A DNA stretch of 64,000 bases from Lachnospiraceae bacterium AC2031 (GTDB taxonomy: Bacteria; Bacillota; Clostridia; Lachnospirales; Lachnospiraceae): positions 1-64,000 of the forward strand of contig JIAB01000001.1 of the NCBI GenBank assembly GCA_000687975.1, written 5' to 3'. Shown one piece after another: positions 23,956 to 52,454 of the stretch (the stretch's first letter is position 1; each line of letters opens with the position of its first letter). The translations under genes and the position numbers were made by a program. The notes under the pieces were generated by a model. It had not been told where the DNA came from. It was given only the letters and a program-made list of their open reading frames with translations, and made no database searches.

Positions 23956-23992
23956 AGGAAAAGTGCTGTTGAGAAATCAACAGAAACGAAAT

Positions 23993-24065
23993 GGGGTCTT
24001 AGCTCAGCTGGGAGAGCATCTGCCTTACAAGCAGAGGGTCACAGGTTCGAGCCCTGTAGGCCCCA
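23993..24065 (+). tRNA. tRNA-Val (anticodon UAC)
   Basis: A full cloverleaf of 73 bases can be drawn. The acceptor GGGGTCT pairs with AGGCCCC, the anticodon loop CTTACAA carries TAC, and the T loop is GGTTCGAGCC. CCA is not encoded. It is the first gene of the tRNA operon. Confidence 0.95.
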
Positions 24066-24069
24066 ATAT

Positions 24070-24143
24070 GGCGGGATAGCTCAGTTGGCTAGAGCATACG
24101 GTTCATACCCGTAGTGTCGAGGGTTCGAATCCCCCTCCCGCTA
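24070..24143 (+). tRNA. tRNA-Met (anticodon CAU), elongator-like
   Basis: The anticodon loop TTCATAC carries CAT. The acceptor GGCGGGA pairs with TCCCGCT with no mismatch at 1:72, which argues against an initiator. A lysidine-modified Ile isoacceptor with the same anticodon cannot be excluded by eye. Confidence 0.88.
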
Positions 24144-24157
24144 TATATAACACCTAC

Positions 24158-24232
24158 CGGGGTGTGGCTCAGCTTGGCTAGAGCGCTTGATTTGGGATCA
24201 AGAGGTCGCAGGTTCGAATCCTGTCACCCCGA
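24158..24232 (+). tRNA. tRNA-Pro (anticodon UGG)
   Basis: The acceptor CGGGGTG pairs with CACCCCG and the anticodon loop TTTGGGA carries TGG. The T arm is intact and the discriminator base is A. Confidence 0.95.
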
Positions 24233-24317
24233 CTCGGATGTTAAATGACTTGACATCCAAAACAAAATTTTATATCATTTAGTAGCTGTAAGTCGCAGTT
24301 ATTAGACTTAATGTCAT

Positions 24318-24388
24318 GCGGGTGTAGTTCAGTGGTAGAACACCAGCCTTCCAAGCTGGATATGTGGGTTCGATTCCCATCACCCGCT
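24318..24388 (+). tRNA. tRNA-Gly (anticodon UCC)
   Basis: The acceptor GCGGGTG pairs with CACCCGC and the anticodon loop CTTCCAA carries TCC. It is separated from the tRNA-Pro gene by an 85-base spacer, the longest in the cluster. Confidence 0.95.
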
Positions 24389-24415
24389 TTTAGACTGTCA
24401 TTTAGATGGTCATAT

Positions 24416-24489
<74 letters not shown>

Positions 24490-24547
24490 AATTTGCAGCT
24501 TCGATGAAGCTGCTATTTTTCAAGATTGCACATGCAATCTGCACTGT

Positions 24548-24622
24548 GGTGGGTATGGCGCAGTTGGCTAGCGCGCCAGATTGTGGCTCTGGAGGCCGAG
24601 GGTTCAAGTCCCTCTACCCACC
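24548..24622 (+). tRNA. tRNA-His (anticodon GUG)
   Basis: The anticodon loop TTGTGGC carries GTG. The encoded extra G at the 5' end faces a C discriminator, the identity mark of tRNA-His. The acceptor GTGGGTA pairs with TACCCAC. Confidence 0.95.
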
Positions 24623-24689
24623 CTTTTTTTTATAAAAGGATTAATCCTGATATTAGCTGGATCATTCAGCGATATGCAGAAATTAACAT

Positions 24690-24761
24690 TGGGCTATCGC
24701 CAAGTGGTAAGGCACAGCACTTTGACTGCTGCATTCGTTGGTTCGAATCCAACTAGCCCAG
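24690..24761 (+). tRNA. tRNA-Gln (anticodon UUG)
   Basis: The acceptor TGGGCTA pairs with TAGCCCA with the U1-A72 pair typical of tRNA-Gln. The anticodon loop CTTTGAC carries TTG and the discriminator is G. Confidence 0.95.
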
Positions 24762-24774
24762 ATTTAATCATTAT

Positions 24775-24847
24775 GTGCCACTAGCTCAGTCGGTAGAGCA
24801 CTTGACTTTTAATCAAGTTGTCGGGGGTTCGATTCCCCCGTGGCACA
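24775..24847 (+). tRNA. tRNA-Lys (anticodon UUU)
   Basis: The acceptor GTGCCAC pairs with GTGGCAC and the anticodon loop CTTTTAA carries TTT. The T arm (GGGGGTTCGATTCCCCC) is perfectly paired. Confidence 0.95.
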
Positions 24848-24855
24848 CTATATAA

Positions 24856-24937
24856 GCGGATATGGCGGAATTGGCAGACGCGCTAGATTTAGGTTCTAGT
24901 GGGGAATCCCGTGCAGGTTCAACTCCTGTTATCCGCA
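24856..24937 (+). tRNA. tRNA-Leu (anticodon UAG)
   Basis: This 82-base class II tRNA has a long variable arm (GGGGAATCCCG). The acceptor GCGGATA pairs with TATCCGC and the anticodon loop TTTAGGT carries TAG. It is the last gene of the operon. The accessory region begins just downstream, but no copy of its 3' end was found further right. Confidence 0.95.
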
Positions 24938-24953
24938 CTAAGTTATTAATCAG

Positions 24954-29047: not shown

Positions 29048-29242
29048 TTATAACTTGGATTGTTTTTTGATATATTCGCTCAAAGCTGCTCTAGATATCC
29101 TGTAATTTCCCCTGTCATTTATCCTAAACCCTTTTAGTTCATTGTTATTAAGCAATTGATAAACAGCATTTTTTCCTGATCTAAGAATTTTAGCGACTTC
29201 TGATACAGAGAGAATATCTGTGATTTCATTTTCTGTGTACAT
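29048..29242 (-). CDS. Excisionase-like helix-turn-helix protein
   Basis: This 64-residue protein is built as one small MerR/excisionase-type HTH domain. LSVSEVAKILRSGKNAVYQL supplies the two DNA-binding helices, and FRINDRGNYRISRAALSEYI supplies the wing and last helix. Such proteins direct excision or regulate mobile elements. AGGAGG precedes its ATG on the minus strand. A second protein of the same kind, also on the minus strand, lies 0.4 kb to the right. Confidence 0.8.
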   Translation of the reverse strand: MYTENEITDILSVSEVAKILRSGKNAVYQLLNNNELKGFRINDRGNYRISRAALSEYIKKQSKL

Positions 29243-29365: not shown

Positions 29366-29638
29366 ATGTATTACGCGCTAAATGGTAAAAATGGAGTTGG
29401 TGTATTCGATGATTACGGAAAGCTTTATAAAAATCTGAATTATATATTTAAGCCAAGAGTCAAAGGTTTTGATAGTTATAGTGAAGCTTTAGACTATGCA
29501 CTATTACTTTACGATGAGGCACAGAATGATTTTGATTGTAAATTTGATCCGGATGATGTGATGGATATGCAAATCAATTATTTTTATTACAAGAATCAAA
29601 TACGAAAGAAACACCTTGAAAAATATCATGGTATTTAA
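29366..29638 (+). CDS. RNase H1 hybrid-binding-domain-like small protein
   Basis: The 90-residue protein starts at an ATG preceded by AAAGGAGGG. The N-terminal 45 residues (YYALNGKNGVGVFDDYGKLY, then a segment ending VKGFDSYSEALDYA) match the pattern of the caulimovirus viroplasmin or RNase H1 hybrid-binding domain, in which a Tyr-Tyr-Ala strand leads to a strand carrying Gly-[IV]-[FY] and a helix after a Phe-x-Ser/Tyr turn. There is no RNase H catalytic domain. It may bind RNA-DNA hybrids or double-stranded RNA during element transfer; this is a pattern match only. Confidence 0.55.
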   Translation: MYYALNGKNGVGVFDDYGKLYKNLNYIFKPRVKGFDSYSEALDYALLLYDEAQNDFDCKFDPDDVMDMQINYFYYKNQIRKKHLEKYHGI

Positions 29639-29643: not shown

Positions 29644-29674
29644 CAAGCCGCGAGATTGTTTATTTCGCGGTTTG
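29644..29674. terminator. Hairpin between converging genes
   Basis: CAAGCCGCGA and TCGCGGTTTG form a 10-bp stem with one G-T pair. It lies between the plus-strand gene ending at 29638 and overlaps the 3' end of the minus-strand HTH gene, so it can serve both. Confidence 0.55.
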
Positions 29675-29857
29675 AACCATTTTTGAGTTGGTTATTATGA
29701 ATGTTTCTACAGATGATAGAGGAATCTTCCAGTGTCTACCAATTCTAAGTGCTTCGATTTTTGATGAGTTAAGCAGCGCATATGCTGTATTGCTGGATAT
29801 ATTAAGTATGTCGCAAAGTTCGCTTACTGTAAGTAATTCAAGATTAGAATTATACAT
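29660..29857 (-). CDS. Second excisionase-like helix-turn-helix protein
   Basis: This 65-residue HTH protein belongs to the family of the one at 29048. LLTVSELCDILNISSNTAYA gives the helix-turn-helix and IEALRIGRHWKIPLSSVETF the wing, which is the classic IG-R-x-W-x-I form of excisionase-family proteins. Its promoter must lie between 29858 and 29943, divergent from the mobilization genes, so it probably represses or activates them. Confidence 0.82.
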   Translation of the reverse strand: MYNSNLELLTVSELCDILNISSNTAYALLNSSKIEALRIGRHWKIPLSSVETFIITNSKMVQTAK

Positions 29858-29943
29858 ATTTGTTACCTCCCAAAATATTTTATTATTACTATGTTTTGGG
29901 AATAATTATTAAAAACTTTTAATGGGAAAGGAGATGAATATAT

Positions 29944-30096
29944 TTGAAGGAACAAAGAAAAAAGCAGATCCAGAGAAATAAAGACAAGCATCAAAAAAAG
30001 GCTATTGTCATGTTAGATATTCTTATTAATGAAACTAAAGAAAAGAAAACTTCAGATATGTTGAAAGCAATAAGAAACGAGGTTGCTAAATTATGA
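29944..30096 (+). CDS. Small basic protein upstream of the relaxase paralogue
   Basis: This 50-residue Lys/Gln-rich protein starts with TTG behind AAAGGAG. Its TGA overlaps the next ATG in the arrangement ATGA, so the two genes are translationally coupled. The N-terminal half is strongly basic (KEQRKKQIQRNKDKHQKK) and the second half is a single helix. It may be a small DNA-binding accessory protein. No family is recognised. Confidence 0.6.
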   Translation: MKEQRKKQIQRNKDKHQKKAIVMLDILINETKEKKTSDMLKAIRNEVAKL

Positions 30097-30656
30097 GAGA
30101 GATGGACTTTAGAATATCTCATCTTAATACGCAGAAGAATTTAGAAGGTATAAAAATATATAATTACAGAGATTTTGATAATGTACGTGATTTTGTAAAA
30201 TGTATTTCTACTGGTTATCAAGGCAGAAAACCTATTGAGGTATATCAATATGGATTGATAGATACTAATCCTGATGCATTGGTTGAGAGTATACAGCAAT
30301 CAGCAGATTTATTTTCAAAAAACACTGGAATTCTGTTAAGGGGTCTTTTTGTTCAGATTGATAAAGTTTGCATTAATGATTCTGCAATTATCAAATCTCT
30401 TGCTAATGAGTTTGCTAAGTATATACTTTATAGAGGTTTCATACTTAAGTATATAATATATGATATGGATTCATATTTTGTGATTATATATTTGATAAAT
30501 CCAATCAATTATGTAGATGGCTCCAAATATAAAACCAATAATACAGATGTGTTAGAAGATGAGTATAGATGTTTATGTCAATGTGTCAATTATATAAGAG
30601 GGAACTGCACAGAATATGATTTTTCAACCTTGGAAACGTATCCGTTACCATATTAG
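30093..30656 (+). CDS. Relaxase-like protein lacking catalytic residues
   Basis: The 187-residue protein aligns by eye along most of its length with the relaxase at 31359. Matching points are the helix before the catalytic position (VRDFVKCI against VEKVIRYI), GLIDTNPDALVESIQQSADL against GVLTNNGVEEIIYQFNQTQL, and YFVIIYLINPINYVDGSKY against HFHIHIVHNSINFLTGRKY. The catalytic Tyr becomes Cys37, and the four metal-site His positions become Tyr128, Val130, Ile132 and Ile135. It should therefore be unable to nick DNA. It may be a structural partner, an oriT-binding repressor, or a decaying duplicate, but the frame is open and coupled to the gene before it. Confidence 0.7.
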   Translation: MREMDFRISHLNTQKNLEGIKIYNYRDFDNVRDFVKCISTGYQGRKPIEVYQYGLIDTNPDALVESIQQSADLFSKNTGILLRGLFVQIDKVCINDSAIIKSLANEFAKYILYRGFILKYIIYDMDSYFVIIYLINPINYVDGSKYKTNNTDVLEDEYRCLCQCVNYIRGNCTEYDFSTLETYPLPY

Positions 30657-31066
30657 CGTATGTTGGTTGAAATAAAATTTGAACGCATTTATATATTGTA
30701 ATTATTCTGTGCTAATAATGATTAAATTGATATATTATTATTTGTTATTAACATATAGATAAATGCGAATTAATTATAGATGGTGATATATGGGATAGGA
30801 GTGGCCGAAAAGATAAAGGAAAACAAATGAGGATTTAGTATAGTCTATACGATGACACATAAGTGTAGATAAAGAAATATAACAAGATATGATTACTTTT
30901 ACTTCAAATTATTGGACACGAGGAAAATGTATTACAAAACACGTATCTTGTTATATATTAGGAATTTAGTTCATGTAATATTATTTGCGTAGAAAATAAT
31001 ATTACATGAACTATTTTTATAATCTGCTTTTATAACAAAAAGCTTAGATTAGAAAGGATTAGTAAT
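30657..31066 (+). other. Candidate origin of transfer region
   Basis: No gene is visible in these 410 bases. TATAACAAGATA (30878-30889) and TATCTTGTTATA (30944-30955) are perfect 12-bp inverted repeats enclosing 54 bases. A perfect 19-bp hairpin follows: arms 30968-30986 and 30994-31012, loop GCGTAGA, then ATTTTTAT. The block lies just before mobC and the relaxase gene, where oriT normally sits. The 19-bp hairpin could instead be a terminator. No nic site is assigned. Confidence 0.5.
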
Positions 31067-31384
31067 ATGAACAATAAGAAGATTAGAAAAGATAATAATA
31101 TATCTATTAGATGTTCTGATAAAGATAAAGAACAGATATTTGAATTAGCTAAAAAAGAAGATAAATCTTTTTCAGAATATGTTCTATCTTGTTGTATTCC
31201 TGATAAGGAAAAAGATCGTTTAGAAATGATTAACCATAGAAAAAGGATAGGATTTATTAATCAGATGAATCATTTATTAGACGAATTTGACAAAATGGGT
31301 TCTCAAAATGTTCTGAATTCATTGAAATCATTGATTAAAAATGAGGAGGATGATTTACGTGCCAGTATTAAAGAACTTAGGTAG
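31067..31384 (+). CDS. mobC: MobC-like relaxosome accessory protein
   Basis: This 105-residue protein has an N-terminal ribbon-helix-helix segment (NISIRCSDKDKEQIFELAKK, then SFSEYVLSCC), the usual DNA-binding form of MobC proteins, and a helical C-terminus (NHRKRIGFINQMNHLLDEFD). MobC binds near oriT and assists the relaxase. AGAAAGGA precedes the ATG. Its 3' end overlaps the relaxase gene by 26 bases, which indicates coupled translation. Confidence 0.8.
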   Translation: MNNKKIRKDNNISIRCSDKDKEQIFELAKKEDKSFSEYVLSCCIPDKEKDRLEMINHRKRIGFINQMNHLLDEFDKMGSQNVLNSLKSLIKNEEDDLRASIKELR

Positions 31385-32036
31385 TCCTTATACAAAGAAT
31401 AAATATACTAATGACGTTGACTCATATTATAAGAGTGAAGATTCTGTTGAAAAAGTTATTAGATACATTACTAGAACGAGAAAAAATGAAAATAGAATAG
31501 ATGAACTTATTAGTATTGGAGGATGTGGAGTATTAACTAATAATGGAGTGGAAGAAATCATATATCAATTTAATCAAACTCAACTGATATATGATTTAGA
31601 TAATCGTGGTGGACGTAGATTATATCACGAAACTTATTCTTTTAGTGATGAAGAAATATACGCGATTGGTGACATTAGTCTTCTAGATGAAATAGCATTT
31701 GAGATTTGTAGATATTATTACCTTCAAGGATATGAAGCAATATATGCAATTCATTATAGTGAGGAGAAGCATTTTCACATTCATATAGTTCATAATTCAA
31801 TAAATTTTCTTACTGGTAGGAAATATCAACAACATTGGAACGACTTAATATATAAGGAAATGGATTTCTTTAATATAGTATGTCGTGTATATAACAAATC
31901 AAATACTATTAGAAGAACTAACAATGTACCAATTATACCATTATATTTCTATACCAAACGCAACAAAGGGATACCTATAGAAAATGATAGATATAATGCG
32001 TATAAAGATTATCGATATGGATATATCGCTGGCTAA
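31359..32036 (+). CDS. Relaxase / mobilization nuclease, short form
   Basis: The 225-residue protein is a MobA/VirD2-type relaxase domain with no C-terminal extension. A GTG start is chosen because GAGGAGG lies nine bases upstream; ATGs at 31341 and 31350 overlap that site. The catalytic Tyr is probably Tyr36 in KVIRYITRTRK, in the place of the family's Tyr-Ile. The three-His metal site is HFHIHIVHN (His138, 140, 142, with His145). It should nick oriT and pilot the strand. At this length it lacks the helicase or primase parts found in larger relaxases, fitting an element mobilised by another conjugative system. Confidence 0.85.
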   Translation: MPVLKNLGSPYTKNKYTNDVDSYYKSEDSVEKVIRYITRTRKNENRIDELISIGGCGVLTNNGVEEIIYQFNQTQLIYDLDNRGGRRLYHETYSFSDEEIYAIGDISLLDEIAFEICRYYYLQGYEAIYAIHYSEEKHFHIHIVHNSINFLTGRKYQQHWNDLIYKEMDFFNIVCRVYNKSNTIRRTNNVPIIPLYFYTKRNKGIPIENDRYNAYKDYRYGYIAG

Positions 32037-32420: not shown

Positions 32421-32503
32421 TTCTTTAAGCGACTATAGTTATTTTACATACTGTGTCTATAATAGTTAATGTAGTTCAAGAGTACAATTGGAGGCTTAGA
32501 AAA

Positions 32504-32779
32504 ATGGACGACTATATAGATGCAGTTCGAACAGGACGAAATATAAAAAAGTATATTAAGCAGAGTGGATATACAGTAAAAGAAATACAGATTTTTTTAG
32601 GGTTTAAATGTCCACAATCCATTTATAGGTGGCTAGATGGATCCTCATTGCCGACGATAGCACACTTATACATGTTAAGTTTATTGTTTGATGTGTATAT
32701 AGAGGATATGCTAGTGCTTAATGAGATGGTCGTATCTAAGCAGCTTATTAGTTTTGCAAGGTATATAAGCGAAGAATAG
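32504..32779 (+). CDS. XRE-like helix-turn-helix regulator
   Basis: The 91-residue protein starts at an ATG preceded by GGAGG. An HTH of the Cro/C1 kind is visible at about residues 8-60: NIKKYIKQSGYTVKEIQIFL, then SIYRWLDGSSLPTIAHLYML. The Trp after the recognition helix and the Leu-Pro-Thr turn are typical. It is the last gene before a 650-bp gap and probably controls the mobilization module. Confidence 0.75.
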   Translation: MDDYIDAVRTGRNIKKYIKQSGYTVKEIQIFLGFKCPQSIYRWLDGSSLPTIAHLYMLSLLFDVYIEDMLVLNEMVVSKQLISFARYISEE

Positions 32780-32947: not shown

Positions 32948-33216
32948 ACTATACCTAATCCCATTGATTTCGTCAAGAATTATGATAAAATTGATATATA
33001 ATTATATTCTAACACTCAGACAACGTCAATTGATAAAGGACAATTAAATATTCACATTCATGTTTATGCGTATGATGTTATTGATAAGATGTTTAAAAGT
33101 GTGATAAAATTTATTTATAGATTAACAGTATATATGTGTTATTTTGAAACGAATTCAAAACAAAGATGTAACTTATAAACTGCAAACTTTTTGATTGAAA
33201 GAATTGTATATTTTAG

Positions 33217-33278
33217 TAAAATCATGGAAACGTGATGACACAAAGCTATAGGGACTGTAAAATGTCAGCCAGTTGCAA
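33217..33278 (+). promoter_or_regulatory. c-di-GMP-I (GEMM) riboswitch aptamer
   Basis: The GEMM signature is present: a stem capped by a GAAA tetraloop (TCATGGAAACGTGA), the conserved joining segment GACACAAAGCTATAGGG, then TGTAAAATGTCAGCC. It lies 150 bases before a lipoprotein gene and just before a terminator hairpin. The 3' strand CAGCCA (33266-33271) is complementary to TGGCTG (33296-33301) in that hairpin. Such aptamers bind cyclic di-GMP; here ligand would favour the terminator, so an OFF switch is inferred. Confidence 0.85.
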
Positions 33279-33288
33279 TTTATGTATT

Positions 33289-37232: not shown

Positions 37233-37342
37233 ATGTATTAGATGTTGTTCCGTTTATGGTAGTAAGGATTTGTGGTATAATAAATGATGAATCTTGTTAT
37301 ATAGAATGATACGTATTGTGTATCATTAATAAGGGGGTATAT

Positions 37343-40261
37343 ATGGGTAAGGTTCAGTCAGAATATGATGTAGAGATTAAGTTTATTGAAAAACTAGAAA
37401 GTATTGGCTACGAGTTTATTGAATTAAAGAATTATGATGATGTAATAGCCAACTTTAGGAGTAAATTGATAGAGTTTAACTCCTCTAAATTAATCGAGGC
37501 CAAGGGTACTGCTGAATTATCAGATTCTGAGTTCAACAGAGTGCTTATCTATATAGATAATAAGAGCGTATATGAATCAGCGAAGATATTAAGAGATAAA
37601 TATATTCTTACATTAGACAATGGAAAAACTGTATATCTTGATTTCTTTTCTTTTGATACCGATAGAAATATCTATCAGGTTTCGCATCAGATAACTATGG
37701 ACAAGGATCATAAGGATGATGTCTTATATAAAAACAGATACGATGTTACTGTTTTTATTAATGGACTTCCTCTTGTCCAGATAGAATTAAAAAGACCAGG
37801 AATAGAAATAAACGAGGCTATTAATCAGATCAACAGATATAGAAGATTCTCATTTAGAGGAATCTTTAGATATCTGCAACTTTTTGTTGTGTCAAACTCC
37901 GTTCAGACAAAGTATTTCTGTAATGAAAATGAAATGGAAGATGGAACATATAATCCTATACTTAAGAGTTTGGTGTTCTTTTGGACTGATGAAAACAATA
38001 AGAGAATAAATACACTGGATGCTTTTACAGCTGAGTTCTTTAGAAAGGCATCTATTACAGAGATGCTTGATAAATATATGGTTATTAAGAGTACTGAGCC
38101 TGTTTTAATGGTTATGAGGCCTTATCAGATATATGCCGTTAAAGCTGCCAAGAAACGTGTTCTAGAGGCAAATCAGAATGGCTATGTGTTTGCTTGTACA
38201 GGATCCGGAAAGACGTTGACAAGCTTTAAACTGGCTCAGATATTAAGAGATGAGTCCAGAGTAGACAAAGTGGTCTTTCTTATTGATAGAAAAGATTTAG
38301 ATGATCAGACAGTAGATGAATATAATTCTTTTGAAAAAGACTGCGTTGATAATTCTGACACTACCTATGTACTTGTAAAGCAGCTTAAACAGGACGACAG
38401 AAAGCTTATAGTCACTACTATACAGAAAATGGCTAATGCTGTTAAAAATAGTAAATACGCGCAGCTAATGGATCAATACAGGGATAAGAAGGTCGTATTT
38501 ATTATCGATGAGTGTCATAGATCTCAGTTTGGAAGAATGCATGCTGATATTGAAAGACATTTTGAAAATGCAAACTATATAGGATTTACGGGAACTCCGA
38601 TATTTGAAGCAAATAAAGGCGCAGCAAAAAGAACTACAGCTGATCTATTTAATGCTGGAAGTAAGCTTGATGCCTGCCTTCATAAGTATATGATCAAGGA
38701 TGCTATTGCAGATGGTAATGTACTTAGATTTTCTGTGGAATATCAACGTACTATCTTTGCACATCAAATAGCTGCTAAGGGCATTGATCCAGAGCAGATT
38801 GAGGATCCGGAATACTGCAAACGCCATAAAATAGATATTGATAATCTGTATCACGCTGATGAAAGAATACAGAAAATAGCTAAAGATATATTTGATCATC
38901 ACGAACAGCACGTACATCCTCAGGGAAAAGATATCTATACAGCTTTATTTGCAGTTGATTCTATTAAGACACTTGGAAAGTATTATGATGCCTTCAAGGA
39001 ATTAAATGCGAAGATGCCGGAAGATAAGAGATATAAGGTTGCTGCTATCTTTAGTTATGGTGTAAACGAAGATATGGATGATGGGGCCGATGAGCATTCG
39101 GCTGAGCTTCTTTCTCGAATAATGGATGATTATAATGAGATGTTTGGTACTACGTATGCTTTAGATACATTCGATGGTTATAGAAAAGATATAGCTAAAA
39201 GAATGAAACAGAAGAATCTGCCACAGGTTGATATACTTCTAGTAGTCAATATGATGCTTACTGGTTTTGATGCTAAGCCGCTTAATACATTGTATCTGGA
39301 TAAGAACCTTGTATGGCATTCTCTTGTTCAGGCATACAGTAGAACGAATAGAGTAGATAAGAAGACTAAACAATTTGGTCAGATAGTCTCATACAGAAAT
39401 ATCAAGAAGTGGCAGGATGATGCACTTACTTTATTCTCTGGTGATGGAGATCCTAATGAGTATCTGCTTGAGAACTACGAATATTATGTTCAGAAATGGG
39501 TTAATCAGGTTCCTGTACTTAGAAAGATTACTCCAACAGTAGATGAAGCAGGTCAATTACAGAATGAAGATGAGATAAGAATGTTTATTCTTGCTTTTAG
39601 AACCCTTGTAACGATTCTTGCTACACTCAAGACATTTAGCAAGTTTGACTGGGCTGATCTTTCTGTTGTTCTTGATGAAGATGAGTTTGAGGGTTATAAG
39701 AGCTGGTATATGTATTATAGGGATCAGTCAATAAAGGATAATCCTAAGATTCCTGTTCCGGTAGATGTTGATTTTGATATTGAACTTGTTAGAACTGACA
39801 GAATAAATGTTGTATACATCTTAAATCTTCTAAAGGCTGCTAAGAATGCTAAGGAATTGACTGAAGAACAGATTCAGGCAAATATTGATCTGATTCTTAG
39901 AGAGATTGAAAGGTCCGATAATGAATCTCTTAGAGCTAAGCAGGATGTGATGAAGGAGTTTATTGAAACAAGGTTCTATGAACTTCCGGAAGAAGCTGAT
40001 ATACAGCAGGCTTATGAGGAGTTTGAAAGAGAGAGACTTCAAGCAGAAATAGAAAGTTTCTCTTATGAGAATGATATTGAGGTTAGTATAGTAACAGATA
40101 TATTTACAGATTATAGTTTCAGTGGTGGCATTTCGGATGAGAGTATTCGAAAGAGGCTAATGTCATATCACTTAGGATTATTAAAGATTACAAAGCTTAC
40201 AAAGGATATTAAGGGCTTTGTTATAAATACATATAACAAATATAAAGCAGAGGGTGAGTAA
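37343..40261 (+). CDS. hsdR: Type I restriction enzyme, R (motor/nuclease) subunit
   Basis: This is a 972-residue HsdR; the ATG is chosen because AAGGGGG lies upstream. The N-terminal nuclease domain has RYDVTVFINGLPLVQIELKR, giving the D...ExK catalytic residues. Helicase motif I is FACTGSGKTLTSFKLAQ, motif II is FIIDECHRSQFGRMH and motif III is FTGTP, with YSRTNRVDK near motif VI. HsdR translocates DNA and cuts when the HsdM2S complex meets an unmethylated site. It is the first gene of the locus and its TAA overlaps the ATG of hsdS by one base. Confidence 0.95.
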   Translation: MGKVQSEYDVEIKFIEKLESIGYEFIELKNYDDVIANFRSKLIEFNSSKLIEAKGTAELSDSEFNRVLIYIDNKSVYESAKILRDKYILTLDNGKTVYLDFFSFDTDRNIYQVSHQITMDKDHKDDVLYKNRYDVTVFINGLPLVQIELKRPGIEINEAINQINRYRRFSFRGIFRYLQLFVVSNSVQTKYFCNENEMEDGTYNPILKSLVFFWTDENNKRINTLDAFTAEFFRKASITEMLDKYMVIKSTEPVLMVMRPYQIYAVKAAKKRVLEANQNGYVFACTGSGKTLTSFKLAQILRDESRVDKVVFLIDRKDLDDQTVDEYNSFEKDCVDNSDTTYVLVKQLKQDDRKLIVTTIQKMANAVKNSKYAQLMDQYRDKKVVFIIDECHRSQFGRMHADIERHFENANYIGFTGTPIFEANKGAAKRTTADLFNAGSKLDACLHKYMIKDAIADGNVLRFSVEYQRTIFAHQIAAKGIDPEQIEDPEYCKRHKIDIDNLYHADERIQKIAKDIFDHHEQHVHPQGKDIYTALFAVDSIKTLGKYYDAFKELNAKMPEDKRYKVAAIFSYGVNEDMDDGADEHSAELLSRIMDDYNEMFGTTYALDTFDGYRKDIAKRMKQKNLPQVDILLVVNMMLTGFDAKPLNTLYLDKNLVWHSLVQAYSRTNRVDKKTKQFGQIVSYRNIKKWQDDALTLFSGDGDPNEYLLENYEYYVQKWVNQVPVLRKITPTVDEAGQLQNEDEIRMFILAFRTLVTILATLKTFSKFDWADLSVVLDEDEFEGYKSWYMYYRDQSIKDNPKIPVPVDVDFDIELVRTDRINVVYILNLLKAAKNAKELTEEQIQANIDLILREIERSDNESLRAKQDVMKEFIETRFYELPEEADIQQAYEEFERERLQAEIESFSYENDIEVSIVTDIFTDYSFSGGISDESIRKRLMSYHLGLLKITKLTKDIKGFVINTYNKYKAEGE

Positions 40262-41478
40262 TGGGTGAGAAAAATACACCAAAAATAAGATTTCCAGGTT
40301 TTACTGATTCTTGGGAACAGCGTAAGTTGGGAGAGGTGTTTAAGCAGACATCTAATTTCGTAAATCCCAGTGATGATAATATTGAGTTATGGAGTCTTAC
40401 TGTAGAAGACGGATTGACTCCAAAATCAGAAAGATATAATCGTGAGTTTCTTGTGAAGAAAGATGATAACTTCAAAGAGGTACGACCAGGAGATATAGTC
40501 TACAACCCAATGAATATGACATTAGGGGCTGTTGGATATAATGGAATGGCTAAAAGTGTTGCTGTTTCGGGTTATTATACAACTATGATTGCTAGAGAAA
40601 ATTATGATTCTTATTACATCAATACATGGTTGAAAAGTCCCCAAGCGATTTTATTATATAGGACATATGCAACAGGTTCCTTGATTGAAAAGCAAAGAGT
40701 ACAGTTTCCGACGCTTTCAATAATACCTGTATTATTTCCAAAATATGAGGAACAAAAGAGGATTGGGGGGGTTTTTGCAAACCTCGACAATCTTATCACC
40801 TTTCATCAGCGTAAATTAGAAGAAATTAAAGAATATAAGGCTGGAATGCTACAGAGGATGATCCCTAAAAATGGAGAAAATGTTCCGGAGATAAGATTTC
40901 CTGGGTTTACTGACGCTTGGGAACAGCGTAAGTTATCAGATGAGTTTTCAGATTTCATTGTACCGATGAGAGATAAGCCCAAGGAATTTGGAGGTAATAT
41001 TCCCTGGACTCGTATCGAAGACATAGAAGGGAAGTATCTTAACGGATCCTTGTCTGACCAATATGTTACAGAAGAAACTGTACAAAAGATGAATTTGAAG
41101 ATTATCCCAAAAGATTCATTGATAGTTTCATCAAGTGCTACATTTGGTGTGGTTGCCATAGTTACGCAGGATTTAATAACAAATCAGACTTTTATTGGTT
41201 TGGTTCCAAATGAAAAAGAAACATTAGATTACTGGTATGCATACTTCTATTCGGATGCAGCAAGAAAGTATATGAAACTACAATCTGCTGGTTCGACTAT
41301 ATTCTATATTGCGAGAGAGAGTTTTGAAAATATGCCAATCACTGTTCCTTCGAAGGAAGAAATGATGAAAATTGGAACATATTTTGATAACCTCGACAAC
41401 CTTATCACTCTTCATCAGCGAAAGCTAGAGGAGATAAAAGAATATAAAAAAGGATTATTACAACAAATGTTTGTTTAA
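40261..41478 (+). CDS. hsdS: Type I restriction specificity subunit, first copy
   Basis: This 405-residue HsdS has two target recognition domains. Each half opens with the same anchor (RFPGFTDSWEQRKL at about 11 and RFPGFTDAWEQRKL at about 212) and closes with a conserved helix, NLDNLITLHQRKLEEIKEYK at the end and FHQRKLEEIKEYKAGMLQ in the centre. The two recognition domains between these anchors differ, so the DNA target is bipartite. A paralogue at 44772 shares the anchors nearly base for base. Confidence 0.94.
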   Translation: MGEKNTPKIRFPGFTDSWEQRKLGEVFKQTSNFVNPSDDNIELWSLTVEDGLTPKSERYNREFLVKKDDNFKEVRPGDIVYNPMNMTLGAVGYNGMAKSVAVSGYYTTMIARENYDSYYINTWLKSPQAILLYRTYATGSLIEKQRVQFPTLSIIPVLFPKYEEQKRIGGVFANLDNLITFHQRKLEEIKEYKAGMLQRMIPKNGENVPEIRFPGFTDAWEQRKLSDEFSDFIVPMRDKPKEFGGNIPWTRIEDIEGKYLNGSLSDQYVTEETVQKMNLKIIPKDSLIVSSSATFGVVAIVTQDLITNQTFIGLVPNEKETLDYWYAYFYSDAARKYMKLQSAGSTIFYIARESFENMPITVPSKEEMMKIGTYFDNLDNLITLHQRKLEEIKEYKKGLLQQMFV

Positions 41479-41519
41479 GCACTGTATATCTTTTTATGAT
41501 TATAGAAAGGATTATTGTA

Positions 41520-42446
41520 ATGAATACCATAGGGAAACTGGAAGAAGTAGATGTTCGAGAGCTTTGGAAACATGAGCAGTATGACTTTTCAAATTGGCTC
41601 TCACAAGATGAGAATATTGAATATCTTAATGATATAGTAGGTTTAACTCTTATTGATGTTGATAAAGAAGTTTATGTAGGACCATACCGTTGTGATATTG
41701 TTGCGAAAGATGAAACTTCTGGGATTACCGTTATTGTAGAAAACCAGCTTGAAGGAACAAATCATGACCATTTAGGTAAAATAATTACATATGCTTCAGG
41801 GTTAGATGCGAAAGTAATGATATGGATCGTTAAAGAAGCAAAAGAGGAACATCGTGCAGCGATTGAATGGCTTAATAATAATACGAATAACGAAATAAGT
41901 TTTTTTCTATTAGAAATTCATGCATATAAGATAGGAGATTCAAAACCAGCTCCAAAATTTGAAGTAGTAGAAAAACCAAATGATTTTGTTAAGAGAAGTA
42001 AGAAAAACATAGAAAGTGGAGAATTAAATAAGAGTCAGGGAGAAAGATTAAACTTTTGGGAACAGTTTAATCAGATTGTAATAAGTCGAGGAAAACCATT
42101 TAATCTTAGAAAACCTACAACTGATCATTGGTATGATGTGGCTATGGGTACAAGTGATGCGCATATTGCTATAGATTTAGTTAATAAAGATGGAAGAATA
42201 GTTGTTGAATGTTATATTAATGATAATAAGGAATTATTTGATTCTTTTGAATCTCATAAAGAGGAAATTGAAAATGAACTCGGGTTTTCGTTGATTTGGG
42301 ATAGGCTTGATGGGAAGAAGGCATCTCGAATTAAGTATCGTATTCAAGGACTTAATTTTGATGACCATTCTAACTATAACGATCTAATGAATAAAACCAT
42401 AGATGTAGTAATAAAAATGAGAGATACATTTAAAAGATATTTATAA
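41520..42446 (+). CDS. DUF4268-like predicted nuclease inside the type I locus
   Basis: The 308-residue protein starts at an ATG with GAAAGGA upstream. The N-terminal domain has a PD-(D/E)XK-like arrangement: Asp59 in YRCDIVAK and Glu74-x-Gln76 in TVIVENQLEG. A His-Leu-Gly-Lys-Ile-Ile-Thr-Tyr helix follows, typical of such folds. The C-terminal half resembles DUF4268 (WEQFNQIVISRGKPFNLRKP, later YINDNKELFDSFESHKEEIE). It is inserted between hsdS and hsdM and oriented with them. It may be an additional effector or a methylation-dependent nuclease. The family name is from memory. Confidence 0.75.
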   Translation: MNTIGKLEEVDVRELWKHEQYDFSNWLSQDENIEYLNDIVGLTLIDVDKEVYVGPYRCDIVAKDETSGITVIVENQLEGTNHDHLGKIITYASGLDAKVMIWIVKEAKEEHRAAIEWLNNNTNNEISFFLLEIHAYKIGDSKPAPKFEVVEKPNDFVKRSKKNIESGELNKSQGERLNFWEQFNQIVISRGKPFNLRKPTTDHWYDVAMGTSDAHIAIDLVNKDGRIVVECYINDNKELFDSFESHKEEIENELGFSLIWDRLDGKKASRIKYRIQGLNFDDHSNYNDLMNKTIDVVIKMRDTFKRYL

Positions 42447-42491
42447 ACAAATTTTCGGCAGCCTAAAGTGATACATGGAGGATTTAATAGA

Positions 42492-44081
42492 ATGGCAATA
42501 GATACAAATAAAGTGCAGAGTCAAGCGGCAGAGCTTTCATCTACGTGTTGGCAGATCGCTAATGATCTTAGAGGTGGTATGGATGCTTCTGAGTTTAAAA
42601 ACTACATTCTTGGTACTATCTTTTATAGATACCTTTCTGAAAGAACGGAAATGTATATGCAGGAGATACTTCAAGAGGATGGCCTTTCTTATGAAGAGGC
42701 TTTTGCTAATGCTGATTTCAAGCCTATTGTAGAGCAGTGGAGCATAGAACATTTAGGATATATTATAAAGCCAGAAAATCTCTTTAGAGAGCTTTCAAGG
42801 AAGATAACTAAGCCTAAAGATGAGAATGATAAGTTTTCTGTTGAAGATTATGAAAGAGCTATAGGTGATCTTACCGGCTCGACTCTTGGACACGAATCGG
42901 AGGCAGCCTTTTCTGGATTGTTTGATGATGTCAGACTTCAAGATACAAGGCTTGGAGATACTGTATCAGAGAGAACTTCAACCATAGGAAGTGTTATATC
43001 AAGAATAGCGGAACTTGATATGGATCTTCAGAATCACGAGTTTGATGTTCTCGGTACGGCTTATATGATTCTGATAGGTCTATTCCAATCAAATGCCGGT
43101 AAAAAAGGTGGAGAGTTCTTTACGCCAGTAGGACCATCAACTTTATGTGCAACATTAGCTACTGTTGGACTTGATGAGGCTAAAACAGTTGGTGACTGTA
43201 CTTGTGGTAGTGCTTCAATGCTTCTTGATGTACAGAAACACCTTACAACTGGAAAGGTTGGACATTTTTATGGACAGGAGAACAATCCTACTACATACAA
43301 CTTGGCTCGTATGAATATGCTCATGCACGGTGTTGATTACCAGAACTTTACAATTTGTAAGGGAGACACCATTTATAACGATACTTATGGCGATGTCAAG
43401 ATGACCGTTCAGGTATGTAATCCACCATATTCTTTAAAATATGATGCTAATCCGGCTTTATTAGATGATCCTAGATATTCTGGTGTAGGTAAACTAGCTC
43501 CTAAGAGTCACGCTGATTATGCTTTTGTACAGCACATGATTTATCACATGGATGATACTGATGGAAGAGTAGCAGTTCTTCTCCCACATGGTGTTCTTTT
43601 TAGAGGAGGAGCAGAAGAGGCTATAAGAAAGAATATAGTAAAGGATCTGAATAGGCTTGATGCAGTAATAGGACTTCCTGCTAATTTGTTCCACGGTACG
43701 TCTATTCCTGTTTGTATTCTTGTATTGAAGAGTAAGAGAAATGGCAATAGTGATAATATACTATTTATAGATGCAAGCAAGGACTTCATTAAAGGCAAGA
43801 ATCAAAATGAGCTTTCGGATGAGCATATTGAGAAGATAGTTAATGCTTACAAGGAAAGAAAAGATATCGATAAGTTTTCGCATGTTGCAACTATGGAAGA
43901 GATTAAGGCAAATGACTATAATCTAAACATTCCTAGATATGTTGATACAGCAGAAGAGGAAGAAGAAATTGATCTTGATGAAGTTACAGGAAAGATTAAG
44001 GATATAGATAAAGAGATAGAAGAAGTATCTAGATCATTAAAGAAATCCTTTGATGAATTGGGGTTAGATTTTCCTTTTTAG
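42492..44081 (+). CDS. hsdM: Type I restriction-modification methyltransferase subunit
   Basis: This 529-residue HsdM is an N6-adenine methyltransferase; the ATG follows GGAGG. An N-terminal helical domain (LRGGMDASEFKNYILGTIFY) precedes the catalytic domain. GGEFFTPVGPS leads in, motif I is DCTCGSASMLLDVQ, and motif IV is VCNPPY. The C-terminal coiled coil (IDKEIEEVSRSLKKSFDELG) contacts HsdS. Together with either HsdS it forms the modification enzyme. The gene order R-S-x-M-x-S is unusual; M-S-R or R-M-S is common. Confidence 0.95.
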   Translation: MAIDTNKVQSQAAELSSTCWQIANDLRGGMDASEFKNYILGTIFYRYLSERTEMYMQEILQEDGLSYEEAFANADFKPIVEQWSIEHLGYIIKPENLFRELSRKITKPKDENDKFSVEDYERAIGDLTGSTLGHESEAAFSGLFDDVRLQDTRLGDTVSERTSTIGSVISRIAELDMDLQNHEFDVLGTAYMILIGLFQSNAGKKGGEFFTPVGPSTLCATLATVGLDEAKTVGDCTCGSASMLLDVQKHLTTGKVGHFYGQENNPTTYNLARMNMLMHGVDYQNFTICKGDTIYNDTYGDVKMTVQVCNPPYSLKYDANPALLDDPRYSGVGKLAPKSHADYAFVQHMIYHMDDTDGRVAVLLPHGVLFRGGAEEAIRKNIVKDLNRLDAVIGLPANLFHGTSIPVCILVLKSKRNGNSDNILFIDASKDFIKGKNQNELSDEHIEKIVNAYKERKDIDKFSHVATMEEIKANDYNLNIPRYVDTAEEEEEIDLDEVTGKIKDIDKEIEEVSRSLKKSFDELGLDFPF

Positions 44082-44147
44082 ATAATCTATATAACCGGTA
44101 TATTATTTAAGAGACAGTCATTGTTAGGCGAATATGCGGAGATGACG

Positions 44148-44765
44148 ATGAATAGAATTGAATTAAATCCTTGGATGGATTATGAAGAATCAAATGCTAA
44201 AGAAATATATAGAGTTTCTAATCAAATATGTAGTATTGTAAAGAAACTAAATAAATTCGGGGTAAGTATTATTATTGAGGTGGATAATGAAACGCTTTTA
44301 TATAATATTAATATAGTTATTTCTTATTGGACAAAGCATACATATGTGGGCAAAAGAAAGAATGATACTATAAGAACTGCTTTCCAGTCTTTTTTTGTTA
44401 ATTTATATGAGCTTTTGATTTTTTTTAAATATAATAGTTGTGATTATTATAGTGAGTTGGCAAATAATAGCCTGTATCAAGGAAGGCTGTATAGATATTT
44501 AGGACATGGGCATGCTAATGAAGATATACAAAGAAAAATACTTCCAGAATATGATGAGATATATGTGTCTTGGAGTAAAAAATCCCCAAGCCTTTATTTA
44601 GAACAAAAACTATATGGAACAATAACTATATTGTCATGTGTGGTTGACAATCCTTATTGGGCTATTGATTTAAAACAATTAGGGGCTGTGTGTGAGGGGG
44701 AAGACGAGGCTGTTTTTCCTACAATAAGTGAAACTGTTAAAGAAATTAAGTTTATTGAAAGATGA
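44148..44765 (+). CDS. Unknown 205-residue protein inside the type I locus
   Basis: I do not recognise this protein. The ATG is chosen because GGAG lies six bases upstream. It is alpha-rich with many aromatic residues, lacks a signal peptide or membrane span, and has no nucleotide-binding or nuclease motif I can see. Local features are LYELLIFFKYNSCDYYSELA and YLGHGHANEDIQRKIL. It ends six bases before the second hsdS, so it belongs to the same transcript. Lower codon bias and higher AT than hsdM suggest later insertion. Confidence 0.65.
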   Translation: MNRIELNPWMDYEESNAKEIYRVSNQICSIVKKLNKFGVSIIIEVDNETLLYNINIVISYWTKHTYVGKRKNDTIRTAFQSFFVNLYELLIFFKYNSCDYYSELANNSLYQGRLYRYLGHGHANEDIQRKILPEYDEIYVSWSKKSPSLYLEQKLYGTITILSCVVDNPYWAIDLKQLGAVCEGEDEAVFPTISETVKEIKFIER

Positions 44766-44771
44766 GAATGT

Positions 44772-46034
44772 ATGAAAAAGGAAATGAAAAATGTTCCGGA
44801 TATTAGATTTCAAGGATTTACAGACACCTGGGAACAGCGTAAGTTAGGAGAACTTGTATCGTTTTCAAAGGGTTCTGGCTATTCAAAAGGAGATTTGAAG
44901 GAAGATGGAACTCCTATAATATTGTATGGAAGGCTATACACGAAATATGAAACAGTTATATCAGAGGTGGATACTTTTGTTGATGAAAAGAAGAACTCTG
45001 TTTATAGCAAGGGTGGGGAGGTTATTGTTCCTGCTTCAGGAGAAACTGCAGAAGACATTTCAATTGCCTCAGTCGTTGAAAAATCAGGGGTTTTACTTGG
45101 AGGAGACCTTAATGTAATAACTCCTCCGAAAGATTTGGATTCAGCGTTTTTGGCTATTAGCATATCAAATGGAAAACCGCATAATGATATGGCAAAAATG
45201 GCTCAGGGAAAGTCAGTTGTTCATCTACACAATTCTGATTTGGCCCAAATTGATTTACCATATCCAAGTTATGAGGAACAGCGTAGAATAAGTGGGCTTT
45301 TATCTGACATTGACAATCTTATCACTCTTCATCAGCGTAAGGTGGATGAAATTATTGAGTATAAAGCTGGAATGCTACAGAAGATGTTTCCTAAAAAAGG
45401 AGAAAATGTTCCGGAAATTAGGTTTTCGGGATTTACTGATGCTTGGGAACAGCGTAAGTTTGGAGATTTAGCAGATTATAAAAAGGGACCGTTCGGAAGT
45501 GCCATCACAAAAGATATGTTTGTGCCTAAAAGTGAGGAATCAGTAAAGGTTTATGAGCAGCAAAACGCAATCAATAAAGACTGGACTTTGGAGAGATATT
45601 TTCTGCCAAAAGAATATGCATTAACAAAGCTTAAATCGTTTGAAGTATATGGTGGAGATATTATTGTTTCTTGTGCTGGCACCATTGGTGAAATTTATGA
45701 AATCCCTGTAAATGCTGAAAGTGGAGTGATTAATCAGGCGTTGATGCGAGTTCGTGTAAATGAAAATATGATAGATAAAAAAATGTTTATAATATCATTT
45801 TCTAATATGATTGATGACTTCACTAGAGCGCATAGTAATGGATCTGCCATAAAAAATATACCCCCTTTTGCAGACTTAAAACCAATGGAAGTAATGATGC
45901 CATCATTGGAAGAACAAAGAAAGATTAGCAGTTTTTTTGATAACCTCGACAACCTTATCACTCTTCATCAGCGTAAGCTTGAGAGGATCAAAGATTATAA
46001 AAAAGGATTATTACAACATATGTTTATTAAATGA
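44772..46034 (+). CDS. hsdS: Type I restriction specificity subunit, second copy
   Basis: This 420-residue HsdS has the same layout as the copy at 40261: anchors RFQGFTDTWEQRKLGE at about 12 and RFSGFTDAWEQRKFGD at about 216, and a final NLDNLITLHQRKLERIKDYK helix. Both recognition domains differ from those of the first copy, so the cell could methylate two targets, or four if half-genes recombine. A 38-bp segment at 45936-45973 is identical to 41383-41420. Confidence 0.94.
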   Translation: MKKEMKNVPDIRFQGFTDTWEQRKLGELVSFSKGSGYSKGDLKEDGTPIILYGRLYTKYETVISEVDTFVDEKKNSVYSKGGEVIVPASGETAEDISIASVVEKSGVLLGGDLNVITPPKDLDSAFLAISISNGKPHNDMAKMAQGKSVVHLHNSDLAQIDLPYPSYEEQRRISGLLSDIDNLITLHQRKVDEIIEYKAGMLQKMFPKKGENVPEIRFSGFTDAWEQRKFGDLADYKKGPFGSAITKDMFVPKSEESVKVYEQQNAINKDWTLERYFLPKEYALTKLKSFEVYGGDIIVSCAGTIGEIYEIPVNAESGVINQALMRVRVNENMIDKKMFIISFSNMIDDFTRAHSNGSAIKNIPPFADLKPMEVMMPSLEEQRKISSFFDNLDNLITLHQRKLERIKDYKKGLLQHMFIK

Positions 46035-50448: not shown

Positions 50449-51381
50449 ATGTCTGCAGATGTAGAAACTATGATGTATGTAGGAGAGAGGAATAAACCGT
50501 GGCATGGTCTGGGAGTATCAGTTGAAGAGGCGCCAAATTCAGAACAAGCTCTTATTCTTGCGGGACTTGATTGGAAAGTTATCCAGAAATCGATCTATAC
50601 AGTAGATGGAACCAAGGTTGAAGGTTACCGAGCTAATGTTAGAGATAAGGATAATAAGGTGCTTGGTGTGGTAAGTGATAGATATAAGGTTGTACAAAAT
50701 GGTGAGGCATTTAAGTTTACAGATGCATTACTGGGTGAAGGAGTAAGATATGAAACGGCCGGATCATTGCAGGATGGTAAAAAGGTTTGGATTTTAGCAA
50801 GGTTGCCAAGGGAATATATTATTACAGAGGAAAGGATTTGTCCTTACTTGGTGTTCTCAACAACGCATGATGGGAGTGGAGCTGTTAGGGTGGCTATAAC
50901 GCCTGTTAGAGTAGTTTGCAATAATACATTAAATCTAGCGTTAAATACAGCGAGCAGGAGCTTTTCTATAATGCATACGCAATCTGTAAATAGTCGACTT
51001 CAAGAAGCGCGTGATACATTATTTAGGGCAGAGGATTATATGGATAAGCTAGAAAATGAAATTGAACGATTAAGTGATATACCTGTTTCGGATAAATTGT
51101 TAGAAGAATATATTGAACAACTGTTGCCGATCAGTCAGGATGCTACTCCGACTCAGGTAAAGAATATATTTAAACTTAGAGATAATATGAGAACAAGATA
51201 TTTTGATGCGCCTGATTTAAAGAAAGTTGGTAAGAATGCTTATCGTTTCATAAATGCAGTATCAGATTTTGCTACACATAGTAATCCATTAAGGAAAACA
51301 GTTAATTATAATGAGAATCTGTTTATTAAGACGATAGATGGTAATCCTTTTATAGATAAAGCGTATGAATTAGTTGCATAG
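50449..51381 (+). CDS. DUF932 phage/plasmid-like protein
   Basis: This 310-residue protein matches the phage/plasmid-like DUF932 family by its opening MMYVGERNKPWHGLGVSVEE and by RANVRDKDNKVLGVVSDRYK, then ITPVRVVCNNTLNLALNTAS. Members are common beside YqaJ nucleases and annealing proteins on phages and plasmids. The biochemical role is unknown. AGAAAGGAG precedes the ATG. A terminator hairpin begins at its stop codon. Confidence 0.88.
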   Translation: MSADVETMMYVGERNKPWHGLGVSVEEAPNSEQALILAGLDWKVIQKSIYTVDGTKVEGYRANVRDKDNKVLGVVSDRYKVVQNGEAFKFTDALLGEGVRYETAGSLQDGKKVWILARLPREYIITEERICPYLVFSTTHDGSGAVRVAITPVRVVCNNTLNLALNTASRSFSIMHTQSVNSRLQEARDTLFRAEDYMDKLENEIERLSDIPVSDKLLEEYIEQLLPISQDATPTQVKNIFKLRDNMRTRYFDAPDLKKVGKNAYRFINAVSDFATHSNPLRKTVNYNENLFIKTIDGNPFIDKAYELVA

Positions 51382-51415
51382 AAGATCATTCATGAAAATG
51401 AATGGTCTTTTTATT
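51382..51415 (+). terminator. Hairpin between DUF932 and exonuclease genes
   Basis: AAGATCATTCAT (51382-51393) pairs with ATGAATGGTCTT (51398-51409) over 12 bp with one G-T pair and a four-base loop, then TTTATTTAT. It begins at the stop codon of the DUF932 gene. Confidence 0.8.
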
Positions 51416-51464
51416 TATGCCATACATCACAGAAAATCTAAAAGGGAAGGGGGTGATAATTACG

Positions 51465-52394
51465 TTGTATGATAAGATAAAAAAAAGCGATTTGACATAT
51501 GAAGAGTGGCTAGAACTTAGGAAAAATGGAATTGGTGGATCTGATGCTGGGGCAATAGTAGGAGTAAATCCCTATAGTAGTAGGATGAAGGTTTTTCGGG
51601 ATAAAACTACTAATGAAATAGAGATTGTATCATCAGAATCTATGAGGGTTGGGAAAGATTTGGAAGAGTATGTAGCGCAGCGGTTTTGTGAAGCTACAGG
51701 CAAAAAAGTTCGTAAATCGAACTATATGTATGTATCAAAAGCGCATCCTTTTATGCTGGCTGATGTTGATAGATTAGTTATTGGAGAAGATGCGATTTTA
51801 GAGTGTAAAACAGCAAATGCATATCATGCGTCTAAGTGGGCAAATTCTGAGATTCCAGAAAGCTATCTAATTCAGTGTTACCACTATATGGCGGTTACAG
51901 GTCGGAAAACCGTTTACCTTGCGTGTCTAATCATGGGAGTTGGCTTTACTTACAAGGTTATTAAATGGGATGATGAATTAATCTCTGCTCTAATAGAAGC
52001 AGAGAGGGATTTTTGGGAGAATTATATTATTCCTAGAAAGATGCCGCAAGTAGATGGAAGTAAGTGCTGCGATGAAGTGTTGTATAAGTATTTTCCGAAT
52101 GCAGAGAAGAATAGAATTCAACTTGATCCTGATTTATCTGACAAACTTGATCGAAGGGAGGAAATACTAGATACGATTGATAAGCTGCAAAATGAACAGA
52201 GAAAGATAGAACAAGAAGTTAAACTATTTATGACAGATAATGAATTTGCTGAATCTGAAAAATATCGTATTAGCTGGAGTAATGTAGAATCGACCAGGCT
52301 GGATACTACAAGAATTAAGAATGAAAGGCCGGATATATATTCAGAATATGCAAAGACTACTTGTTCAAGGCGCTTTCAGGTGAAGGTAGCCTAA
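51465..52394 (+). CDS. YqaJ-type viral recombinase exonuclease
   Basis: The product of about 309 residues starts with TTG behind AAGGGGGTG; other in-frame starts upstream overlap the terminator. The lambda-exonuclease fold is visible: LRKNGIGGSDAGAIVGVNPY, then LRVGKDLEEYVAQRF with the first Glu, FMLADVDRLV with Asp, and AILECKTA with the Glu-x-Lys pair. A helical C-terminal extension follows. It should resect double-stranded DNA to provide single strands for the Rad52-like protein encoded next. Confidence 0.88.
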   Translation: MYDKIKKSDLTYEEWLELRKNGIGGSDAGAIVGVNPYSSRMKVFRDKTTNEIEIVSSESMRVGKDLEEYVAQRFCEATGKKVRKSNYMYVSKAHPFMLADVDRLVIGEDAILECKTANAYHASKWANSEIPESYLIQCYHYMAVTGRKTVYLACLIMGVGFTYKVIKWDDELISALIEAERDFWENYIIPRKMPQVDGSKCCDEVLYKYFPNAEKNRIQLDPDLSDKLDRREEILDTIDKLQNEQRKIEQEVKLFMTDNEFAESEKYRISWSNVESTRLDTTRIKNERPDIYSEYAKTTCSRRFQVKVA

Positions 52395-52400
52395 TTATAC

Positions 52401-52435: not shown

Positions 52436-52454
52436 TGTAGGAAAGGAGAAATAA

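Follow-up and report, generated by a model that had tools for sequence, protein, structure and literature searches.

The first 64 kb of the one-contig genome (3.19 Mb) of Lachnospiraceae bacterium AC2031 (contig JIAB01000001.1, positions 1–64 000; hereafter the window) carry a mobilization module in a stretch of low G+C content (27–30% at 29–32 kb). Two relaxase-like genes belong to it: P0002, a short relaxase with its catalytic residues in place, and P0001, a homologue in which these residues are lost. Two HTH_17 genes on the minus strand, with a gene for a small protein on the plus strand between them, precede the rightward series P0004, P0001, gap, P0003 and P0002.

29048–29242, minus strand: HTH_17 gene (PF12728, 45 bits)
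29660–29857, minus strand: second HTH_17 gene, divergent from P0004–P0001 (PF12728, 53.2 bits); its role is presumably of the excisionase/regulator type
29944–30096, plus strand: P0004, Lys-rich open reading frame (ORF) of 50 residues with a TTG start; its stop overlaps the P0001 start as ATGA
30093–30656, plus strand: P0001, 187-residue relaxase homologue that lacks the catalytic Tyr and the HUH histidines (BLASTP, profile and alignment)
30657–31066: AT-rich intergenic stretch of 410 bp with inverted repeats, a candidate origin of transfer (oriT) or control region
31067–31384, plus strand: P0003, MobC/NikA-like ribbon-helix-helix protein (PF21983, 31.9 bits; cut-off 27)
31359–32036, plus strand: P0002, 225-residue short relaxase with a GTG start, Tyr36 and HIH intact (PF03432, 57.8 bits, E 1.8e-15)

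P0002 is read here from the GTG at 31359; the ORF list has the ATG at 31341, which gives 231 residues.

Homology of P0001 and its lost catalytic residues

The 187-residue product had been aligned by eye with P0002 in the initial annotation, and the alignment holds. BLASTP, as a single comparison, gives 27% identity over 78 columns of the motif region (E = 3e-6). A hidden Markov model (HMM) of relaxases that carry the HxH motif (P0001 excluded, P0002 included) scores P0001 at 31.8 bits (E 1.2e-8) versus 5.7 bits for the best unrelated ORF, in a scan of 1836 ORFs that counts overlapping loci more than once. In the 3.19-Mb genome, P0002 is the sole other match of P0001 up to E 0.01 (E 0.0026), and P0001 the sole other match of P0002 up to E 1 (E 0.0034). 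Pfam, PHROGs and NCBIfam returned nothing for P0001 up to E 1; the homology is seen by the HxH-relaxase HMM though the Pfam relaxase model PF03432 itself has no match. That the similarity is due to chance, or to a shared alpha/beta arrangement and nothing else, would fit this lack of a Pfam match and the similar-scoring chance matches (E down to 1e-4) that P0001 searches yield. Genome matches of P0001 at E ∼ 1e-3 to 1e-4 are unreliable alone: the ∼ 290-residue ones that were opened are RapZ-like by sequence, RapZ being the name we assume for them. The margin of 31.8 over 5.7 bits, the BLASTP result and the relaxases at the head of the fold-match list for a P0001 model of low confidence argue against such an origin, which we regard as highly improbable. 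Judged by these comparisons, P0001 is a homologue of MobA/VirD2-type relaxases.

The residues at stake were read from a 78-row alignment made up of 71 rows taken by HMM score (at least 40 bits and at least 120 residues), P0002, P0006 (an HxH relaxase introduced below) and the five proteins that we call dead relaxases, P0001 and four from other genomes. Shorter domains such as L017 were left out, and a tandem pair in genome G532, found later, also lies outside it. P0002 has Y36, H132, H140 and H142 and scores above the PF03432 cut-off of 24.6 bits. Tyr36 corresponds to Cys37 of P0001, as the initial annotation had it, and His132, His140 and His142 to Tyr123, Val130 and Ile132. The replacements it listed for His138, His140, His142 and His145 (Tyr, Val, Ile, Ile) are right as an alignment; the conserved HUH histidines are His132, His140 and His142, which we take to be the metal ligands, and His138 and His145 lie outside the motif. 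The Asn that closes the motif (Asn146 of P0002) is retained as Asn136.

Across the alignment the Tyr column holds Y in 72 of the 73 other relaxases and C, S, T, R and D in the five dead proteins. Each of the three His columns is H in 73/73 and in 0/5 respectively, a tally that is a contrast and not a frequency of loss, because the HMM was built from relaxases picked by their HxH pattern. The motif Asn is present in 70/73 and 5/5, and an NN pair following the motif is invariant in all five dead proteins. Homologues that keep the histidines had been named in advance as a sign that this copy is simply decayed; the 73 other relaxases do keep them, yet a histidine-less set is conserved as well.

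MobA of R1162 (PDB 2ns6) and the staphylococcal relaxase 4ht4 (which we take to be NES) are active nicking enzymes with the Tyr and the His metal site; P0001 lacks all four of these catalytic residues. It is established for the MobA/VirD2 family that a relaxase devoid of Tyr and metal site should not nick. Nicking and covalent attachment at oriT are, on the strength of the alignment, not expected of P0001.

The frame is intact and coupled to the 50-residue P0004 by the ATGA overlap, as had been noted. None of 2000 dinucleotide shuffles left it open, and P0001 (0.364/0.283/0.219) and P0002 (0.391/0.289/0.173) are similar in G+C by codon position; P0001 is very likely coding for these two reasons.

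Dead relaxases in other genomes

Four further genomes (loci G570, G450, G507 and L102) encode relaxase homologues that miss all four residues. The P0001 query led to G570, the G570 protein to G450 and G507, and a two-row alignment to L102, whose protein is 85% identical to that of G450. Of the five dead proteins, P0009 (12.2 bits) and P0001 (no match) stay below the Pfam cut-off for relaxases, and the other three exceed it. As far as the alignment goes, a set of dead relaxases is conserved across five genomes, with the catalytic residues lost in the homologues too.

Selection could be estimated for the G450/L102 pair (P0007/P0010). Its non-synonymous (dN) and synonymous (dS) rates are 0.083 and 1.12, a dN/dS of 0.075 that is rough because dS is near saturation. 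The same comparison gives 0.048 for the neighbouring DUF932 gene, 0.013 for YqaJ and 0.323 for the MobC-like gene. The ratio of the dead gene indicates that this pair is not decaying and that its lineage is maintained for a function presumably independent of nicking. The view of the initial annotation that P0001 is a pseudoenzyme of relaxase descent and not a plain pseudogene gains from both results, the same four losses at four more loci and the strong purifying selection in one pair.

A decaying duplicate, an outgoing relaxase copy whose frame is still open by chance or youth, would explain why no close orthologue of P0001 was found in genome contigs, viral contigs or plasmids (E up to 1), or in 61 genomes of relatives, 392 of the order and 397 of the family (overlapping draws, each including the genome of the window). 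Those matches from these searches that were opened proved to be HxH relaxases, G570 or hits by chance, RapZ among them. Decay would also suit the long P0001 branch (2.84 changes per column) and the failure of an HMM of the four other dead proteins to group P0001 with them, and relaxase pseudogenes do occur: three are described in streptococcal mobilizable elements with two relaxases (PMC5357655). It is opposed by the shuffles, the neighbour-like codon-position G+C, the overlap with P0004 and the selection on P0007/P0010. Moreover, P0001 shares only 21–27% identity with P0009 and P0002 in BLASTP alignments, which implies a long divergence through which its frame stayed intact. We consider decay unlikely.

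A wider survey added no dead protein. Profile A5, run over 299 genomes of the family, had matches in 74, and the dead ones seen were the four already within A5. All 26 loci inspected from these matches have HxH. Seven short or odd open frames were inspected as well: five are HxH relaxases, including the G532 pair that lacks the Tyr, L160 lies at the end of a contig and starts within the motif, and L158 proved to be unrelated. Further dead relaxases may exist, since the remaining A5 matches were left uninspected. No new dead relaxase came from a search of 56 genomes around G507 or from one of 56 genomes around G450 (E 1e-9; overlapping each other and the A5 set), and viral contigs scanned with P0002, P0005, A3 and A7 gave no relative. 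Against PDB sequences A5 had one match, a dynein regulatory protein (E 0.037), taken as chance.

Whether the residues were lost once is answered differently by different analyses. A quick tree from all columns places the five dead proteins on one side of a branch with a support of 85 (SH-aLRT). When the motif columns are removed, the free tree needs two changes; holding the dead proteins together gives a higher likelihood and is not rejected (approximately unbiased test, p-AU 0.874), and grouping P0001 with P0002 is likewise not rejected (p-AU 0.502 and 0.68). With the HMM of the other four dead proteins P0001 reaches 16.2 bits and is outscored by many HxH relaxases (up to 39.4), so that P0001 may be a separate loss. 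The pair in G532 adds to this possibility. Its two relaxase-like genes lie in tandem, in a locus (L156, 2016–3882 and 4123–4341) that also holds a gene between them and a divergent HTH_17. Their products share 42% identity, exceed the Pfam cut-off for relaxases (30.3 and 45.1 bits) and retain HxH, but in place of the Tyr one has His and the other Phe. Independent losses of catalytic residues among the dead proteins are possible on these sequence comparisons.

Companion relaxases and island context

An HxH short relaxase adjoins the dead one at two of the five loci, in the window (P0002, 702 bp from P0001) and in G570 (P0006, PF03432 41.4 bits, 1025 bp away and divergent). In the whole G450 contig (61.6 kb), the whole G507 contig (34.8 kb) and 57 kb around L102, the dead protein is the sole match of the relaxase HMM. 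Genome-wide, PF03432 detects other relaxases in G450, G507 and G570; in the L102 genome, of unstated completeness, it matches the dead one alone, relaxases of other families not having been sought.

These distributions bear on the idea, raised in the initial annotation, of a hetero-oligomer in which P0001 and P0002 would sit jointly at oriT, one nicking and the other only binding, as two TraI do at an F-type oriT. PMC12857230 describes MOBF systems in which a single oriT carries two relaxase molecules, and also mentions inactive VirB1 homologues that are proposed to be adhesins. The adjoining pairs in the window and G570 are consistent with such an arrangement, as is the gene order in G532, which equals that of the window (divergent HTH_17, relaxase-like A, a gene in the MobC position that has no Pfam match, relaxase-like B). 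P0001 and G532_A are, however, not clearly orthologous (E 0.066), and a fixed pairing of active with dead relaxase does not hold in general, because the stretches searched at three of the five dead loci yielded no HxH relaxase, the L102 genome included as far as PF03432 reaches. In the terms of the survey of genomes that had been suggested for the gene pair, dead homologues occur in four other genomes, with selection in P0007/P0010, and an HxH relaxase adjoins the dead one at 2/5 loci only. For P0001 itself a hetero-oligomer seems rather unlikely.

The same three loci would suit a transfer guard, i.e. a dead relaxase that occupies related oriT sites, does not nick them and so limits the relaxases of other elements by dominant-negative immunity. 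Restriction-modification-like genes, recognized by eye in the window and also close to the G507 locus, fit such a guard, as do the other PF03432 relaxases elsewhere in G450, G507 and G570. The L102 genome, its completeness unstated, shows no second PF03432 relaxase. We rate a guard as quite improbable.

Further genes of the window suggest that the pair lies in an island:

32453–32779, plus strand: small HTH protein, 3′ of P0002 (PF12844, 18.3 bits, under the cut-off of 30.2)
50449–54093, plus strand: DUF932, YqaJ, Rad52 and DUF5688 genes, ∼ 20 kb from P0001 (Pfam, phmmer)
62785–63468, plus strand: serine recombinase of resolvase type, ∼ 32 kb from P0001 (PF00239, 81.5 bits; phmmer)

The stretches fetched around each of the four other dead relaxases contain, like the window, homologues of YqaJ, DUF5688 and the serine recombinase (phmmer), and three of them DUF932 as well. 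Parts of this module are also present at the HxH loci G146, G196, G581 and G657, and little or none of it in the fetched stretches of G237, G180, G312 and G532. The sharing of the module suggests that in such islands the relaxase place can be taken by an HxH protein, by a dead one, or by the two together. A divergent HTH_17 gene is found in G507, G532 and G657 too; in G570 HTH_17 is on the same strand.

The dead proteins resemble the short relaxases of Clostridia (P0002, L008, L009, L011, G312, G657, L119 and L122), which are likewise ∼ 160–230 residues long, have a MobC-like gene directly 5′ in seven of eight cases (the G312 contig ends at the gene) and in part belong to loci with YqaJ, DUF5688 and serine recombinase genes, as at the dead loci. 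They differ in keeping the HxH motif, which is missing from all five dead proteins. The window holds a relaxase, MobC and a serine recombinase, as a putative integrative mobilizable element would. In gene content it can be likened to IME_Rho_tet of gut Lachnospiraceae/Oscillospiraceae (PMC12904643), a Bacillota element of the integrative mobilizable type that combines a relaxase and mobC with a serine recombinase; unlike the window island, it comes with no mention of a dead relaxase in the available part of that source.

Several observations stand apart. A relative of P0002 (35–36% identity) is encoded at locus L079 (genome G312). By eye, its 7.9-kb contig also has an ATPase gene and encodes a Rep-like protein, so plasmids too may carry the short relaxase; the relative in G657 shows a slightly higher identity (38%). 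The HxH short relaxase of L122 (genome G387), accompanied by HTH_17 and a MobC-like gene, adjoins a tyrosine-recombinase-like gene, by eye, and this may be a compact mobilizable element by gene content. In the window, a 90-residue protein (29366–29638, plus strand) adjoining the HTH_17 genes reaches 17.5 bits with PF01693 (RNase H1 N-terminal domain), under the cut-off of 21. A nine-gene tRNA array (23992–24938) lies upstream of the low-G+C stretch, and a c-di-GMP-I riboswitch aptamer (33205–33280; 51 bits, gathering threshold 35) lies 5′ of a 340-residue lipoprotein-like gene at 33429. Type I restriction-modification-like genes, judged by eye, span 37316–46034 and include two specificity-subunit-like genes (40261 and 44772).

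A possible DNA-binding role for P0001

The preservation of dead versions in relatives suggests, as far as sequences can tell, that a former cutting enzyme was retained for another job, for example binding DNA. We tentatively favour, at somewhat less than even confidence, the interpretation that P0001 is a dead relaxase which binds DNA and does not nick it, and which serves the mobilization module as a regulator or as a partner in the relaxosome. A MobA/VirD2-type HUH domain has lost its Tyr nucleophile and metal site and would have been retained for binding DNA; such a domain could still bind its own DNA, or a partner. In a module ordered HTH_17, dead relaxase, MobC, relaxase, P0001 would most probably act at the module's origin or control region, either within the relaxosome, as a partner, or by repressing both the divergent HTH_17 promoter and its own operon, with the consequence that the island would be nicked or expressed only under set conditions.

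Two candidate sites may be named. The divergent intergenic region at the HTH_17 promoter holds an 8-bp perfect inverted repeat (TCCCAAAA/TTTTGGGA, 18 nt apart, 29868–29901), a candidate operator; a repeat like it with at least three G/C occurs in 34 of 2000 shuffles. The 410-bp gap contains inverted-repeat arms at 30673–30696/30755–30778, 30877–30889/30944–30956 and 30957–30986/30994–31023, the last of which may be a terminator instead. Rfam gave nothing at the relaxase locus up to E 0.1. P0004 occupies the position where MobC precedes other short relaxases. As a headless MobC it fits by position, and its sequence does not decide: 240 of 1000 shuffles score as well with a MobC HMM, and 15 of 500 with an HMM of MobC from HxH loci only.

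A number of results weigh against this interpretation. The missing close orthologue leaves purifying selection on P0001 itself a matter of inference from P0007/P0010, whose ratio is rough, and by its low score with the dead-protein HMM P0001 may be a separate loss. The P0001 model has low confidence (mean predicted local distance difference test score 54.7, predicted template modelling score 0.62), P0002, an HxH relaxase, was part of its input alignment, and the best Foldseek match (2.1e-3) falls short of E 0.001. A model of P0007 built with no HxH relaxase in its input (mean local score 49.7) had no relaxase among its best 50 rows. Short matches, the best with E 0.11, are all that the window's two intergenic regions share, and no shared operator was found across the loci; the 29868–29901 repeat has no counterpart in three of the four stretches of the other dead loci, and G507 has one A/T-only repeat. 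Pfam detects no ribbon-helix-helix family in the genes 5′ of the dead relaxases in G570 and G507 and only a sub-threshold HTH_40 in L102. The ∼ 106-residue gene 5′ of the G570 dead relaxase was rejected as MobC (103 of 500 shuffles as good, no Pfam family); its position alone fits.

Were P0001 a regulator or partner of this kind, it would retain its fold, bind DNA at a site in the module and be under selection itself. We further speculate, as a doubtful generalization, that Lachnospiraceae islands have repeatedly made relaxases into non-cutting oriT binders, 'oriT guards' or silent relaxosome halves, that would control their own transfer or block the relaxases of competitors, with G532 at an earlier stage. 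By analogy, and with no greater assurance, such binders could be the conjugation counterpart of the origin-binding domains that small DNA viruses derive from inactivated HUH domains. Those of papillomaviruses and polyomaviruses have lost the HUH motifs, as in our reading of P0001, and are kept there for origin binding; they belong to viral replication proteins with a helicase domain and not to relaxases (PMC6668415). A word match in titles and abstract openings of open-licence PMC texts found no report of a conserved dead relaxase family.

Relaxase genes serve to call elements mobilizable. With three of five dead proteins above the Pfam relaxase cut-off, proteins without the nicking residues can enter such calls. 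If dead relaxases bind oriT, they would add control or immunity to gene transfer at a new level, and would offer a nick-free protein for locating the oriT sites of gut elements.
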